A stretch of DNA of 64,000 nt from Planctomycetales bacterium 10988. GTDB taxonomy: Bacteria > Planctomycetota > Planctomycetia > Pirellulales > Pb10988. The DNA lies in the NCBI GenBank assembly GCA_009664345.1, contig CP043547.1:5484709-5548708 (forward strand). Reading direction: 5' to 3'. Shown piece after piece: positions 16,966 through 22,735 of the stretch; position 1 is the first letter of the stretch, and each line of letters starts with the position of its first letter. Position numbers and translations under genes: made by a program. The notes beneath the pieces were generated by a model. It was not told the origin of the DNA. It saw only the letters and a program-made list of their open reading frames with translations, and did not search any database.

Positions 16966-17934
16966 ATGCGTAAATCGCTTAGTTATTTACTGATTATCGT
17001 GTTACTGTCGATCGGCGGCTATTTTTTCCGCTCGGACTTGGAAACTCTACTTCCTCAACCTCATCAAAATAATCATTCTGACAGTTCCAAATTTGAACCC
17101 TCAGGGGATTCACTTAAAGATTCAATAACCATTGCCTCTTTTAATATTCAAGTCTTCGGACAAAGTAAACTTGAAGACAGTGCGGCAATGGATATCCTGG
17201 CAAGAACGGCACGTCGTTTTGACATTATAGCTGTTCAGGAAATTCGATCGAAAAGTCAGGATGTCATGCCACGATTTATCGATTTAATCAACCGTGGTGG
17301 TCATCGTTATGATTATGTCATTGGCCCTCGCATTGGCAGGACTGTCAGCAAAGAACAATATGCCTATGTATATAATACAGATCGTTTAGAACTTGACCCT
17401 TCGAGTATCCACACTGTTTATGATCCAGAAGATATGTTACATCGTGAGCCGTTGGTAGGTACTTTTCGTGTTCGCGGTGTCAGCCCTGACTCAGCGTTTA
17501 CTTTTACACTCATCAATATACATACCGATCCTGATGAAGTAGACCTAGAGCTGAATGTATTAGATGATGTCTTCCGTGCGGTGATCCAAGATGGCCGCGG
17601 TGAAGACGACGTGATTATGCTTGGAGACTTCAATACAGAACCTCAAGAGAGTGGAGAGTTTGGCTCACTTCCAAATATTCATTGGGCAATTCAAGGGGTT
17701 CCTAGCAATACCCGAGGAACGAAACTCTATGATAACTTGGTCTTCAGTACGTTAACAACAACCGAGTTTACAGGCCGAGCTGGGGTCTTCGATTTATGTA
17801 AAGCTTATAATTTAACACTTGAACAAGCCTTGGAAGTTTCTGACCATTTTCCTGTTTGGGCAGAATTCACCGTCGAAGAAGGCGGAAAACGAGGCCGAAT
17901 TGCTCAAGCTCCCGGCGGGTCCAACTATCGATAA
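16966..17934 (+). CDS. membrane-anchored or exported endonuclease/exonuclease/phosphatase-family protein
   Basis: 322 residues. An N-terminal hydrophobic segment (about 5-22) is a signal or anchor. The DNase-I-like fold follows with all key motifs: SFNIQVFG, VQEIR (metal-binding Glu), INIHTDP, LGDFNTE and SDHFPVW (catalytic Asp-His). EEP proteins cleave phosphodiester or phosphomonoester bonds in nucleic acids, lipids or inositol phosphates; the DNase-I-type wording (RxIGRTVSKEQYAYVY) slightly favours a nuclease. A basic C-terminal tail follows the domain. ATG with AGGAG upstream. It lies just before the ExoIII-DnaE gene, which also begins with an EEP-fold nuclease, but a terminator separates them. 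Confidence 0.85.
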   Translation: MRKSLSYLLIIVLLSIGGYFFRSDLETLLPQPHQNNHSDSSKFEPSGDSLKDSITIASFNIQVFGQSKLEDSAAMDILARTARRFDIIAVQEIRSKSQDVMPRFIDLINRGGHRYDYVIGPRIGRTVSKEQYAYVYNTDRLELDPSSIHTVYDPEDMLHREPLVGTFRVRGVSPDSAFTFTLINIHTDPDEVDLELNVLDDVFRAVIQDGRGEDDVIMLGDFNTEPQESGEFGSLPNIHWAIQGVPSNTRGTKLYDNLVFSTLTTTEFTGRAGVFDLCKAYNLTLEQALEVSDHFPVWAEFTVEEGGKRGRIAQAPGGSNYR

Positions 17935-18114: not shown

Positions 18115-18146
18115 GGCGAGGGAGCTTTCTGCTCTCTTGCCTTTTT
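18115..18146 (+). terminator. intrinsic terminator or leader attenuator
   Basis: GGCGAGGGAG (18115-18124) pairs with CTCTCTTGCC (18132-18141), followed by TTTTT. It is 180 bases after the EEP stop and 93 bases before the ExoIII-DnaE start, so it could end the former transcript or act in the leader of the latter. The rest of this 304-base gap holds no gene. Confidence 0.65.
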
Positions 18147-18238
18147 CCGTCTTGTGGGGATCGGTGAACTTTATATATAATTTTGTTCATTATCTTCGCC
18201 ATTTTTGAGACTGATATTGAAAGCTAAAGGGGACGCCG

Positions 18239-21200
18239 TTGTTCGTTGCGACTTGGAATTTGAATGGGATTCGTGCCCGCCAGGAACGTTTTTTCGGCTG
18301 GCTGGAAACGCATCGGCCCGATGTTCTTTGTCTGCAAGAGATTAAGGCTTCGGAAGAACATTTCCCCTTCCCTCTTCTTCAAATGTCCGGATATCATGCG
18401 GTTGCCCACGGGCAAAAAGGTCGCAATGGCGTTGCTATTTTGGCAACTGAAGAATTGACGGAAGTTCAACGAGGGTTTGGAGATGGAGTTGAAGACCCTC
18501 AAGCTCGCTTTATCGCGGCGAAGGTAAACGGCGTTCGCATTATCTCGGCATATTTTCCCACCGGCTGGCCGATCGGTTCCGAAAAATATGATTACAAACG
18601 TCAGTGGAATGCTCGCCTCTTGGCCTACTTAGAACGGACGAAAGCCCTTCAAGAGCCGACTCTCCTCTGTGGCGACTTCAACCTGACATCGATGCCCAGC
18701 GATGTGGCAAATCCGGATGAATGGGAAGGGACGGCCGTTTCCAACCCCGAGATGCGGGCGTGGTTCCAAGGTCTAATCGATCTCGGATGGCAAGATACCT
18801 ACCTCCCCTTCGCCCCGGAGGAACCCCAGTACACTTGGTGGGATGCGACGAAATCTTCCTTTGAACGCAATGATGGGATGCGGATCGACTTCATCTTGGC
18901 TTCTCCCCCCTTGTCTGGTTTATGCCTCGATTCAAAGATCGATCTCGAAGAACGGGCACGTCGCAGCACTTCCGATCATGCTCCGCATTGGAGTAAATTT
19001 CAATGGCCACCAGGGTCTGAAATTCAAGTTGATGTCGAAATTTTAACAGAACAGAAATCATTACACAAAGATGAAGATTCAAGTGAAGTTAATCCTTCGA
19101 CAACCGACCGTACTCAAAAACTTCAGGAAGTCATTACTGAATCTTTTCCTTCAGAAAAGATAGAATTTGATCTCAGTTCTTTTGTCCATTTACATGTTCA
19201 CAGTCATTATAGTTTATTGCAAGGGGCGGGCCAAATTAATGGTTTGGTGAATCGTGCAAAAGAGCTAGGAATGACCTCCTTGGCACTTACTGACAATGGA
19301 AACCTTTATGGGGCTTTACAGTTTTATCAAGCTTGTAAAAGTGCCGATATCAAACCGATTCTAGGGTATGAAGCGAATGTCGCACCTGGGAGTCGCTTTG
19401 AGAAAAAAGGTAGTGGAATTAAAGGGTCTTCCTTTCGCATTACACTTTTAGCTCAAAATCTAACAGGATTTAAAAACCTCGTTAAACTTTCTTCACGTGC
19501 CTATCTGGAAGGTTTTTACTACCGTCCTCGAATTGATAAAGAGCTGTTAACAAAGTATTCAGAAGGTCTTGTTTGTTTAAGTGGGGATGTCCTCAGTGAA
19601 TTTACACAAGGTATCCTTCACGATAAAAGCGGAACTCTGGAAGATGCCAAGCATGTAGCTCGCTGGTATCAACAACTTTTCGGAGATCGCTACTATATTG
19701 AATTAATGAACCATGGGATTGAAGGGCAGGAGGAAATTCTACTTTCCGCTGTTCAAATCGCTCAGGAATTAAACATTCCAACTGTAGCCACTGGGGATGT
19801 TCATTATATCAATCAAGAGGATGCTGAAGCACAAGATATTCTTCTTTGTATTTCATCCGGAAAATTTCGCACAGATCCGAATCGTTATCGTTTAAAAACA
19901 AAAGAGTTTCATCTTCGTAACTTCGAAGAAATATCGCAACGATTTCAAGGTTTAGAAAAGGCCCTTGCTACAACCAAAACGATTGCTGATCAAGTTGATA
20001 TTGAACTGCAACTTGGAGAACGTTTCTTTCCAACCTTTACTTTACCGGAAGGAAAGTCGGCGAAAGAGTACCTCTACGAACTTTGTATCAAAGGTTTAAA
20101 AGATCGCTATAAAGACAATCCTGAGCGTTATAAAGATGGACAGTTCTCACAAGAAGTGATAGATCGTCTTGAACGCGAACTTTATGTTATTAATACGTTA
20201 GGATTTCCCAATTACTTTTTAATTGTTTGGGACTTTGTAAACTTTGCTAAAAAAGAAGGGATTCAGTGTACCACACGGGGCTCCGGGGTCGGCGCACTTG
20301 TTAGTTATGCCCTGTATTTAAGCCATGTTTGTCCGCTTGAGTATGATCTTCTCTTCGAACGTTTCTTGGATATCAATCGTAAAGAAGCGCCTGATATTGA
20401 TATCGATTTTGAAAAGGAACGTCGTGGCGAAGTCATTCAATATGTAAAGGATAAATACGGTGAAGCCAACGTTGCACAGATTGGAACCTTCGGAACTTTA
20501 GCCGCTAGGGCAGCCTTACGCGATACCGGTCGGGCACTGGGGATGCCGCTCTTCCGTGTGGATAGTGTCGTGGCGATGGTGCCGGATGTGTTAGGGATTT
20601 CTTTAGACAAAGCTTTAGAAACAAGTGAAGACTTAAAGAAAGCCTATGATGAAGACCCGGAAGTAAAAGAGTTACTCGATCTTGCCCGACAAATTGAAGG
20701 GCTGGCTCGAAATGTCGGAACGCATGCCGCGGCGGTTGTGATCGCCGATCAGCCTTTGGAAGAGTATGTCCCGTTACAACATGTGACAGGAAAAGAAGAA
20801 GTCATTACCCAATGGTCCATGAATGATGTGGAAGCCGCGGGTTTATTGAAAATGGACTTCTTGGGTTTGCGAAACTTAACGATGCTTTCGAAGGCCGTTC
20901 AACTGATAGAAAGCAACCGTGAAATTTCGATTGATCCTTATGCTTTTCCTTTAACGGATAAACCTACGTATGCTTTGCTTTGTCGAGGTGAAACCAAAGG
21001 GGTTTTCCAATTAGAAAGCGGCGGGATTCGCGACCTTCTACAACGGATGAAGCCGGATCACTTCCGAGATATTATCGCGACGAATGCCCTCTATCGACCG
21101 GGTCCGCTAGAAGGGGGAATGGTCGACGATTATATCGAAGTGAAACATGGACGGCAGGAACCTGTTTATAAACACCCTGTGATGGAAGACGTTCTGTCTG

Positions 21201-22735
21201 AAACCAACGGGGTCATGGTTTATCAAGAACAGGTGATGCGGATTTTAAATCGCTTAGGAGGCATTGAACTTTCCGATGCCTATAAATGTATTAAAGCGAT
21301 TAGTAAAAAGAAGCTGCCGATCATTGCGAAATACAAAGAAGAGTTTATTGATGGATCTGTCAAGCAAGGACTAGCTAAGAAAGAAGCGGAAGAACTTTTT
21401 AACTTAATTGAAAAGTTTGCCGGTTACGGTTTTAACAAAAGCCACTCGACCGCTTATGCCTTAATTGCCTACATGACAGCCTATTTAAAAACACATTATA
21501 GTGTTGAATTTATGGCTTCCTTGTTGTGTAGTGATATTGATGGACGAAACTTTAAAAGAAAAGATTCGCTGGTTGAACACTTGGAAGATTGCCGGCGGAT
21601 GCAAATTGAAATTATGTCGCCGGATGTTAACTCATGCGAAGCCGACTTTACGGTTCGAGGAGAAAAGATTTATTTCGGCCTGAGTGCGATTAAAGGTTGT
21701 GGTCGTTCGGCAAGTGATACGATTGCTCATGCACGAAAAGAAGAAGGGCCTTTTCGCGATCTGTTCGATTTCTGCGAACGGGTCGATCCCTCGATGGTCA
21801 GTCGTTCCACCATTGAATCGTTAATCAAAGCCGGGGCTTTTGATTCCACTGGGGCAAAGCGGGCGGCTTGTATGCAAGTTCTTGAACGAGCGATGCAAGC
21901 CGGTGCCCAGGTCCATGCCGATCGTCGCAGTGGGCAGCAAAACCTCTTCGGTGATTCCGCGGAGGGAGAAGCACAATCTCTCAAACCCGGCGAAAGTTCG
22001 TTTTCGCAGGACGAATGGCCCGAGAAAGAGAAACTCGCGAATGAGAAAGAAGTTCTGGGATTTTATTTAACAAGTCATCCGCTAGCGGAACATGAGCAGA
22101 GCCTCAAGCTGTATTGCACACATCACTCTGGCCAAGTCCCGGCTTTGCCCCATCGGGCCGAGGTCGTGGTCGGCGGGATGCTTTCTTCTTTGAAATTTTC
22201 CAATACCAAGCGGCCACGGGTCGAAGGCGGTCCGACTCGCTATGTGATGTTTGATTTGGAAGATTTAGAAGGCAATCTTCGGTGTATCGTGTGGCCGGAG
22301 CAGTTCGCCGAGTGTGGGCATTTGGCCCAAGCGGATGCGATTTTGGGAGTCCGCGGCAAGGTCGATAAACGCCCTGGCAGTGATGAAGCGAATCTGATTG
22401 TCGACGAGTTGATGCCACTAGAGGACCTCGAAGCCCGGTATACGAAACGCGTTGTGGTTCGGGTGAAGGAGGAATCGCACGGCATCCGAGGCATTGAGCA
22501 ATTGCATGAGATTTTACGCTATTATCCTGGCGATTATGAACTGCGAATCTACCTGGAGCTTGCCAACGGGGGGAAAGTTCTTTGCCACAGCCATGGGTTG
22601 AAAGTAGGCTTGGAGAAAGAAATGCGAGAACGGGTGGAGGAGCTGCTAGGCCCTGAAAACTTCAAGCTTGATTCTTCTCGGCCGCGGCGAAAGTCGGCTG
22701 CTCCCCCTGCTGCCTCCCGACGAAATGCGAGTTAA
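18239..22735 (+). CDS. dnaE: fusion of exonuclease III and DNA polymerase III alpha subunit
   Basis: One uninterrupted 1498-residue frame. Residues 1-255 are a complete ExoIII/AP endonuclease with N7, E34, Y105, D146-x-N148, D217 and D246-H247. Residues 256-312 are a polar, charged linker. Residues 315-1498 are a full-length DnaE: PHP domain (from HLHVHSHYSLL at 317), polymerase core with catalytic PDIDIDF (718-724), helix-hairpin-helix section (about 1170-1240), OB domain (about 1300-1390) and C-terminal domain. The PHP site lacks several usual ligands (Q328, N353, R400, D450) but keeps E378 and D520-x-H522. The start is TTG 18239, with AAAGGGGA upstream, and gives the normal ExoIII N-terminus (FVATWNLNGIRAR). 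Codon use is GC-rich in the ExoIII part, AT-rich in the PHP/polymerase part and GC-rich again at the end. Replicative DNA synthesis is the inferred role; the ExoIII part would give AP-site cleavage and 3'-5' exonuclease. Confidence 0.92.
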   Translation: MFVATWNLNGIRARQERFFGWLETHRPDVLCLQEIKASEEHFPFPLLQMSGYHAVAHGQKGRNGVAILATEELTEVQRGFGDGVEDPQARFIAAKVNGVRIISAYFPTGWPIGSEKYDYKRQWNARLLAYLERTKALQEPTLLCGDFNLTSMPSDVANPDEWEGTAVSNPEMRAWFQGLIDLGWQDTYLPFAPEEPQYTWWDATKSSFERNDGMRIDFILASPPLSGLCLDSKIDLEERARRSTSDHAPHWSKFQWPPGSEIQVDVEILTEQKSLHKDEDSSEVNPSTTDRTQKLQEVITESFPSEKIEFDLSSFVHLHVHSHYSLLQGAGQINGLVNRAKELGMTSLALTDNGNLYGALQFYQACKSADIKPILGYEANVAPGSRFEKKGSGIKGSSFRITLLAQNLTGFKNLVKLSSRAYLEGFYYRPRIDKELLTKYSEGLVCLSGDVLSEFTQGILHDKSGTLEDAKHVARWYQQLFGDRYYIELMNHGIEGQEEILLSAVQIAQELNIPTVATGDVHYINQEDAEAQDILLCISSGKFRTDPNRYRLKTKEFHLRNFEEISQRFQGLEKALATTKTIADQVDIELQLGERFFPTFTLPEGKSAKEYLYELCIKGLKDRYKDNPERYKDGQFSQEVIDRLERELYVINTLGFPNYFLIVWDFVNFAKKEGIQCTTRGSGVGALVSYALYLSHVCPLEYDLLFERFLDINRKEAPDIDIDFEKERRGEVIQYVKDKYGEANVAQIGTFGTLAARAALRDTGRALGMPLFRVDSVVAMVPDVLGISLDKALETSEDLKKAYDEDPEVKELLDLARQIEGLARNVGTHAAAVVIADQPLEEYVPLQHVTGKEEVITQWSMNDVEAAGLLKMDFLGLRNLTMLSKAVQLIESNREISIDPYAFPLTDKPTYALLCRGETKGVFQLESGGIRDLLQRMKPDHFRDIIATNALYRPGPLEGGMVDDYIEVKHGRQEPVYKHPVMEDVLSETNGVMVYQEQVMRILNRLGGIELSDAYKCIKAISKKKLPIIAKYKEEFIDGSVKQGLAKKEAEELFNLIEKFAGYGFNKSHSTAYALIAYMTAYLKTHYSVEFMASLLCSDIDGRNFKRKDSLVEHLEDCRRMQIEIMSPDVNSCEADFTVRGEKIYFGLSAIKGCGRSASDTIAHARKEEGPFRDLFDFCERVDPSMVSRSTIESLIKAGAFDSTGAKRAACMQVLERAMQAGAQVHADRRSGQQNLFGDSAEGEAQSLKPGESSFSQDEWPEKEKLANEKEVLGFYLTSHPLAEHEQSLKLYCTHHSGQVPALPHRAEVVVGGMLSSLKFSNTKRPRVEGGPTRYVMFDLEDLEGNLRCIVWPEQFAECGHLAQADAILGVRGKVDKRPGSDEANLIVDELMPLEDLEARYTKRVVVRVKEESHGIRGIEQLHEILRYYPGDYELRIYLELANGGKVLCHSHGLKVGLEKEMRERVEELLGPENFKLDSSRPRRKSAAPPAASRRNAS

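Follow-up and report, generated by a model that had tools for sequence, protein, structure and literature searches.

An exonuclease III–DnaE1 fusion in Planctomycetales bacterium 10988 and its possible role in replicative proofreading

For bacterial replicases two proofreading nucleases are known, DnaQ-like (DEDD) enzymes and the PHP domain. Both can reside in the polymerase chain itself. In Bacteroidetes, DnaQ-DnaE1 chains carry the exonuclease N-terminal to PHP, separated from it by a linker of ~60 residues (PMC3919608). The active, zinc-dependent PHP exonuclease is characterized by the ligand motif HHDHEH[C/H]DH (PMC12926913), and in Mycobacterium tuberculosis DnaE1 the D23N change alone abolishes exonuclease activity (PMC5636811). 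APE1, which shares the fold of exonuclease III (ExoIII), excises mismatched 3' ends with a preference of 50-fold or more over matched ones and was proposed as the proofreader for Pol beta, which has none of its own (PMC5785985).

Here we describe a gene from Planctomycetales bacterium 10988 (Pirellulales) in which ExoIII (XthA) is joined to the replicative polymerase DnaE1. Positions refer to the window, the whole stretch of 64,000 nucleotides that was analyzed. An earlier note on this DNA knew of no description of the architecture, and the literature searched agrees: ExoIII together with DnaE is not mentioned in two surveys of C-family polymerases (PMC3919608; PMC12926913), and no description of an ExoIII-DnaE or ExoIII-Pol I fusion was found in the open-access literature.

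The fusion gene and its junction

The ExoIII-DnaE1 fusion is confirmed as a real, in-frame gene (Table 1). Pfam domains follow one another along the protein as Exo_endo_phos (residues 4-247), PHP (317-492), DNA_pol3_alpha (610-876), finger (879-1044), HHH_6 (1123-1210) and OB (1310-1394). No RNase_T/DnaQ domain was found in the protein by Pfam, Exo_endo_phos being its sole nuclease. The DnaE equivalog profile PRK05673 (NCBIfam) is matched with 1262 bits against a cut-off of 1002, and the DnaE1 catalytic aspartates in PDIDIDF and LKMDFLG are present and conserved in the alignment. The TTG start and ribosome site named in the earlier note were both recovered, the frame opening at TTG with AAAGGGG six bases ahead. 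Directly 5' on the same strand lies a gene for a second Exo_endo_phos protein (322 aa, with an N-terminal hydrophobic stretch), which is akin to the ExoIII of the fusion at the superfamily level only.

Table 1. Coordinates of the fusion gene, its parts and related loci (window positions unless a locus is named)
Feature	Position	Strand	Remarks
Upstream gene, second Exo_endo_phos protein	16966-17934	+	
Terminator-like hairpin with T tail, between upstream gene and fusion gene	18115-18141	+	consensus match; the search gave 3 matches against 1.7 expected
Ribosome-binding-like AAAGGGG	18226-18232	+	6 nt 5' of TTG; read from sequence
Whole fusion gene, ExoIII (XthA)-linker-DnaE1	18239-22735	+	1498 aa, TTG start
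ExoIII/XthA domain, residues 1-255, complete catalytic set	18239-19003	+	TIGR00195, catalytic residues, AlphaFold
Linker, residues 256-313 (58 residues), acidic (net -9)	19004-19177	+	low-confidence (flexible) in model
DnaE PHP domain, residues 314-590	19178-20008	+	fold kept, exonuclease site destroyed
PHP ligand D to Q, residue 328	19220-19222	+	equivalent of M. tuberculosis DnaE1 D23
PHP ligand H to N, residue 353	19295-19297	+	alignment
PHP ligand H to R, residue 400	19436-19438	+	alignment
PHP ligand C to D, residue 450	19586-19588	+	alignment
Polymerase core (palm, thumb, fingers)	20066-21370	+	catalytic PDIDIDF (718) and LKMDFLG (870) intact
HhH and OB domains	21605-22420	+	
Clamp-binding-like motif QQNLF, residue 1233	21935-21949	+	
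ExoIII-Pol I fusion	L178:3069-6764	-	
ExoIII-Pol I fusion	L250:3809-7279	+	
ExoIII-Pol I fusion	L254		genome G1025

The junction itself has the character of coding sequence. In the fused frame the linker has a codon score of +0.157, compared with -0.213 and -0.875 in the alternative frames, both of which carry stops at the junction. The in-frame score corresponds to the 24th percentile of true coding windows nearby, and it was reached by none of the out-of-frame 58-codon windows of neighboring genes. A consensus search gave no terminator or plus-strand promoter match at the junction. An erroneous join of two neighboring genes, made during sequencing or assembly, is therefore extremely improbable: the coding character of the linker is restricted to the fused frame, the two other frames are stopped, no terminator or promoter signal was matched there, and any single frameshift would deprive DnaE of a normal start. 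Moreover, the protein-specific PHP changes described below cannot arise from the join. What speaks for such an error is the presence of the ExoIII-DnaE fusion in one genome only. The genuine in-frame fusion claimed in the earlier note thus stands, as does the charged nature of its linker, although the length given there (57 residues) is one short.

Whether a shorter, free DnaE is made alongside the full-length fusion depends on an internal start. The earlier note saw no strong one at the DnaE boundary, and indeed no in-frame ATG, GTG or TTG occurs between residues 240 and 326. A separate start is conceivable only at 19133, where the rare codon ATT has a weak AGGA four bases upstream. Initiation there would leave a tail of ~15 residues before PHP, as in normal DnaE. 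However, ATT starts are very rare, the next ATG, GTG or TTG falls only inside the PHP domain, and the fusion would be made anyway, so that a second product is highly unlikely.

In the AlphaFold model, confidence falls below 50 at residues 260-289 and from 305 onward, as would suit a flexible tether; residues 287-302 form a weak helix. Third-codon-position G+C drops from 0.53 over the ExoIII domain to 0.21 over the linker and is 0.32 in the first 500 DnaE codons (18239-20250). This step at the domain border hints at differing histories of the ExoIII and DnaE parts.

The ExoIII and PHP nuclease sites

The ExoIII half is complete, as the earlier note had claimed. It exceeds the cut-offs of both exonuclease III profiles, TIGR00195 (243.8 bits against 182.6) and TIGR00633 (232.9 bits against 99.05). 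All eight catalytic residues checked are present, namely N7, E34, Y105, D146, N148, D217, D246 and H247 (N7, E34, Y109, D151, N153, D229, D258 and H259 in E. coli numbering). AlphaFold modeled the domain with a mean pLDDT above 90 in most blocks and in the four-layer EEP fold. The best PDB match of this model is Neisseria NExo (TM 0.96 by target), which at 39% identity is also the closest solved structure; the ExoIII structures of E. coli (TM 0.89) and A. fulgidus match as well. Two residues near the pocket are unusual, a T at the position of NExo N108 and a V at that of H167. In the ExoIII tree the domain is a long branch within the broad XthA group of planctomycetes and has no firm sister.

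The DnaE half presents a different picture. The earlier note had reported no lesion in either half, which is true of the ExoIII and polymerase centers; the PHP site, however, has lost four of its nine metal ligands. These read HHQNERDDH in the fusion and HHDHEHCDH in every one of the 106 relatives in the alignment (which form 93 clusters below 98% identity), and the fusion thus departs from the motif of an active PHP proofreader. One of the four, D328Q, falls at the position where D23N abolishes activity in M. tuberculosis (PMC5636811). The changes extend beyond the ligands. Where the relatives are 97% conserved or more, the fusion deviates at 15 of the 89 columns that lie in PHP and at 1 of the 214 that lie in the polymerase core (Fisher p 5e-8), whereas other sequences deviate at no more than 4 of the 89 PHP columns. 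The loss is therefore specific to the exonuclease domain. By the ratio of PHP to core divergence, the fusion ranks first of 100. The second most diverged PHP relative to core belongs to the DnaE of genome G008 (L029/L036), in which all nine ligands are intact; this genome also carries an ExoIII-Pol I fusion. AlphaFold gave the DnaE part its usual fold (mean 82), with low confidence around fusion residues 325-330 and 390-396. Judged by its ligands, the PHP exonuclease site of the fusion is dead, uniquely among the aligned relatives.

Distribution and a parallel on DNA polymerase I

The source genome is a single, closed contig of 6.65 Mb. It contains one match to PF07733, so the fused copy is its sole DnaE and sole replicative alpha subunit. 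Likewise, one match to the xth profile exceeds the cut-off, which makes the fused copy the sole clear xthA. The search for a separate dnaE or xthA suggested in the earlier note thus gave no other dnaE and no other clear xthA. The DnaQ-like profile PF00929 had no match in the genome, though a divergent DnaQ could escape it. This profile was also without a match in 30 of 40 genomes searched from the order (the source genome included), as would be expected if proofreading there is usually done by PHP.

Further comparison indicated that, among the genomes sampled, the fusion is confined to this one. In 57 other genomes of the order, those DnaE matches that include the N-terminus start only near query residues 286-315, and these DnaEs are therefore unfused. 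An ExoIII match similar to the domain of the fusion was seen in only 2 of the 57. No second ExoIII-DnaE fusion was found in profile searches of 397 genomes of the order, 398 of the class and 392 of the phylum (the last by protein), sets which overlap in part and in which the source genome is the only member of its family. The domain order, which the earlier note had proposed to look for in related planctomycetes, is thus present, among the genomes searched, in the source genome only. That note had also held that relatives with consistently separate genes would refute the fusion. Most of them instead have an ordinary DnaE and lack any close xthA, and the fusion is therefore regarded as a lineage-specific gain.

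Several other candidates were set aside. An ancestral xthA-dnaE operon gained nothing from the other DnaE loci fetched, where no ExoIII-like match lies within the flanks (up to 6 kb). Long frames over xthA were seen in a few genomes of the profile searches; those at L158, L171 and L199 have no polymerase downstream and mostly represent GC-rich shadow reading upstream. The long frame over DnaE in G015 is extended upstream by low-complexity sequence and is not taken for a domain fusion. As a separate observation, the DnaE of some Pirellulales is interrupted between finger and HhH by an intein that bears a LAGLIDADG endonuclease (L104:6001-10914 and L100:2256-7169), and the DnaEs of L105 and L106 have a similar span.

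ExoIII was, however, found at the N-terminus of another polymerase. In G008, from the same order and another family, it is fused to DNA polymerase I in a protein of 1231 aa (xth 224 bits, pola 905 bits), which is the only Pol I match in that genome. Homologous fusions occur in G1014 and G1025, from another family of the same class, giving three planctomycete genomes in two families. All DEDD residues of the fused Pol I are lost (TLTV, TAAA and TAVG in G008, G1014 and G1025), and the polymerase aspartates are retained in all three. Among unfused Pol I, DEDD is kept in 35 of 43, the remaining eight having lost one or two of the four residues. Such partial loss was noted at L220, L230 and L242 (family f19) and at L219, L239, L256 and L266. 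The ExoIII domains of the Pol I fusions form one clade (100/100) apart from that of the DnaE fusion, and the two polymerase fusions therefore arose independently, with the same pattern.

Proposed function and comparison with known systems

We consider it probable that 3'-5' exonucleolytic proofreading by the sole DnaE1 has passed from PHP to the tethered ExoIII. Following misinsertion, the polymerase would stall and the 3' end fray. ExoIII, on its flexible 58-residue arm, would swing in to remove the 3' nucleotide, and synthesis could resume once the misincorporated or damaged end had been excised. Within the searches made, no 3'-5' exonuclease other than the fused ExoIII appears to be attached to the replicase. 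Presumably this ExoIII is active, processes the 3' ends of the very polymerase that carries it, and was gained in causal connection with the loss of PHP; it may also retain AP-endonuclease activity. The earlier note had proposed a coupling of 3'-end or abasic-site processing to synthesis. This agrees in outline, but the loss of PHP and the lack of a detected DnaQ favor replacement of the proofreader over abasic-site processing. The independent ExoIII-Pol I fusions, all with a dead DEDD site, suggest the same. APE1 offers a precedent for such a role by a nuclease of this fold (PMC5785985), and the Bacteroidetes DnaQ-DnaE1 chains one for the geometry (PMC3919608).

Some observations weigh against replacement. 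Enzymes of the ExoIII family favor duplex 3' ends, and APE1 is a slow exonuclease. The T and V noted above near the ExoIII pocket are a further point. Loss of the PHP site is also seen in Proteobacteria, where a separate DnaQ takes its place. Moreover, the Pol I exonuclease site is partly decayed without an ExoIII fusion in 8 of 43 cases, and with the DnaE fusion in one genome, the link between PHP loss and fusion rests on one DnaE lineage.

The same domain could instead couple repair to synthesis, in base excision repair or at lesions that block the fork, with ExoIII incising AP sites or cleaning 3'-blocked ends for the attached polymerase and PHP lost separately. ExoIII-family enzymes are AP endonucleases and 3'-phosphatases, and the catalytic set is complete here. 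The histidine of NExo that blocks AP sites, H167, is replaced by V in the fusion, and the parallel on Pol I would be natural for gap-filling repair. We nevertheless regard this as unlikely, since AP incision is already covered by a separately encoded Endonuclease IV (Nfo, 290 bits), cutting a template AP site at a fork would break the fork, and the loss of the proofreading site in both fused polymerases would be left unexplained.

It is also conceivable that PHP proofreading was lost first, leaving a replicase of lower fidelity in reliance on mismatch repair, and that the fusion is neutral or minor. PHP-dead polymerases without a fused nuclease are indeed known, namely DnaE3 and most DnaE2 (PMC3919608). 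These are accessory or paired, however, whereas the fusion is the only DnaE of its genome. The ExoIII catalytic residues are still complete, and the same association occurs in two independent fusions, making loss without replacement quite improbable.

If replacement by ExoIII is true, a dead PHP, no detectable DnaQ and an in-chain ExoIII together represent a natural swap of the proofreading module in a replicase. This offers a route to ask what proofreaders need beyond cutting a 3' end. The Pol I parallel turns an isolated curiosity into a testable rule, namely that ExoIII can substitute for the exonuclease native to a polymerase. There is about an even chance that ExoIII/EEP in cis is a third kind of replicative proofreader, with a separate origin of the same solution on Pol I of planctomycetes.

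Carrying a proofreading exonuclease in the polymerase chain is a known arrangement; the nuclease family is new for such a role. The Bacteroidetes DnaQ-DnaE1 chains share with the fusion an N-terminal exonuclease and a linker of nearly the same length (~60 and 58 residues) before PHP. Their nuclease, however, has the DEDD (DnaQ-like) fold, whereas that of the fusion has the unrelated ExoIII/EEP fold (Exo_endo_phos). Firmicutes PolC likewise carries a proofreading exonuclease in one chain with a C-family replicase, as proposed here, but as a DEDD domain inserted inside PHP and in another polymerase form. The PHP-proofreading DnaE1 of Thermus aquaticus, M. tuberculosis and other Pirellulales is the same polymerase as that of the fusion, which is 62-69% identical to its relatives in the order (over the aligned N-terminal ~895 residues). 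In these the nine-ligand zinc site is intact, whereas the fusion has lost four ligands and gained ExoIII. The ExoIII-Pol I fusions also place ExoIII at the N-terminus of a polymerase with a destroyed proofreading site; they differ in having a family A polymerase, a basic linker of ~17 residues and an ExoIII of separate origin. Finally, E. coli XthA, Neisseria NExo and APE1 have the fold and catalytic residues of the fused ExoIII, but they are free proteins of base excision repair, whereas the fused ExoIII is part of a replicase.
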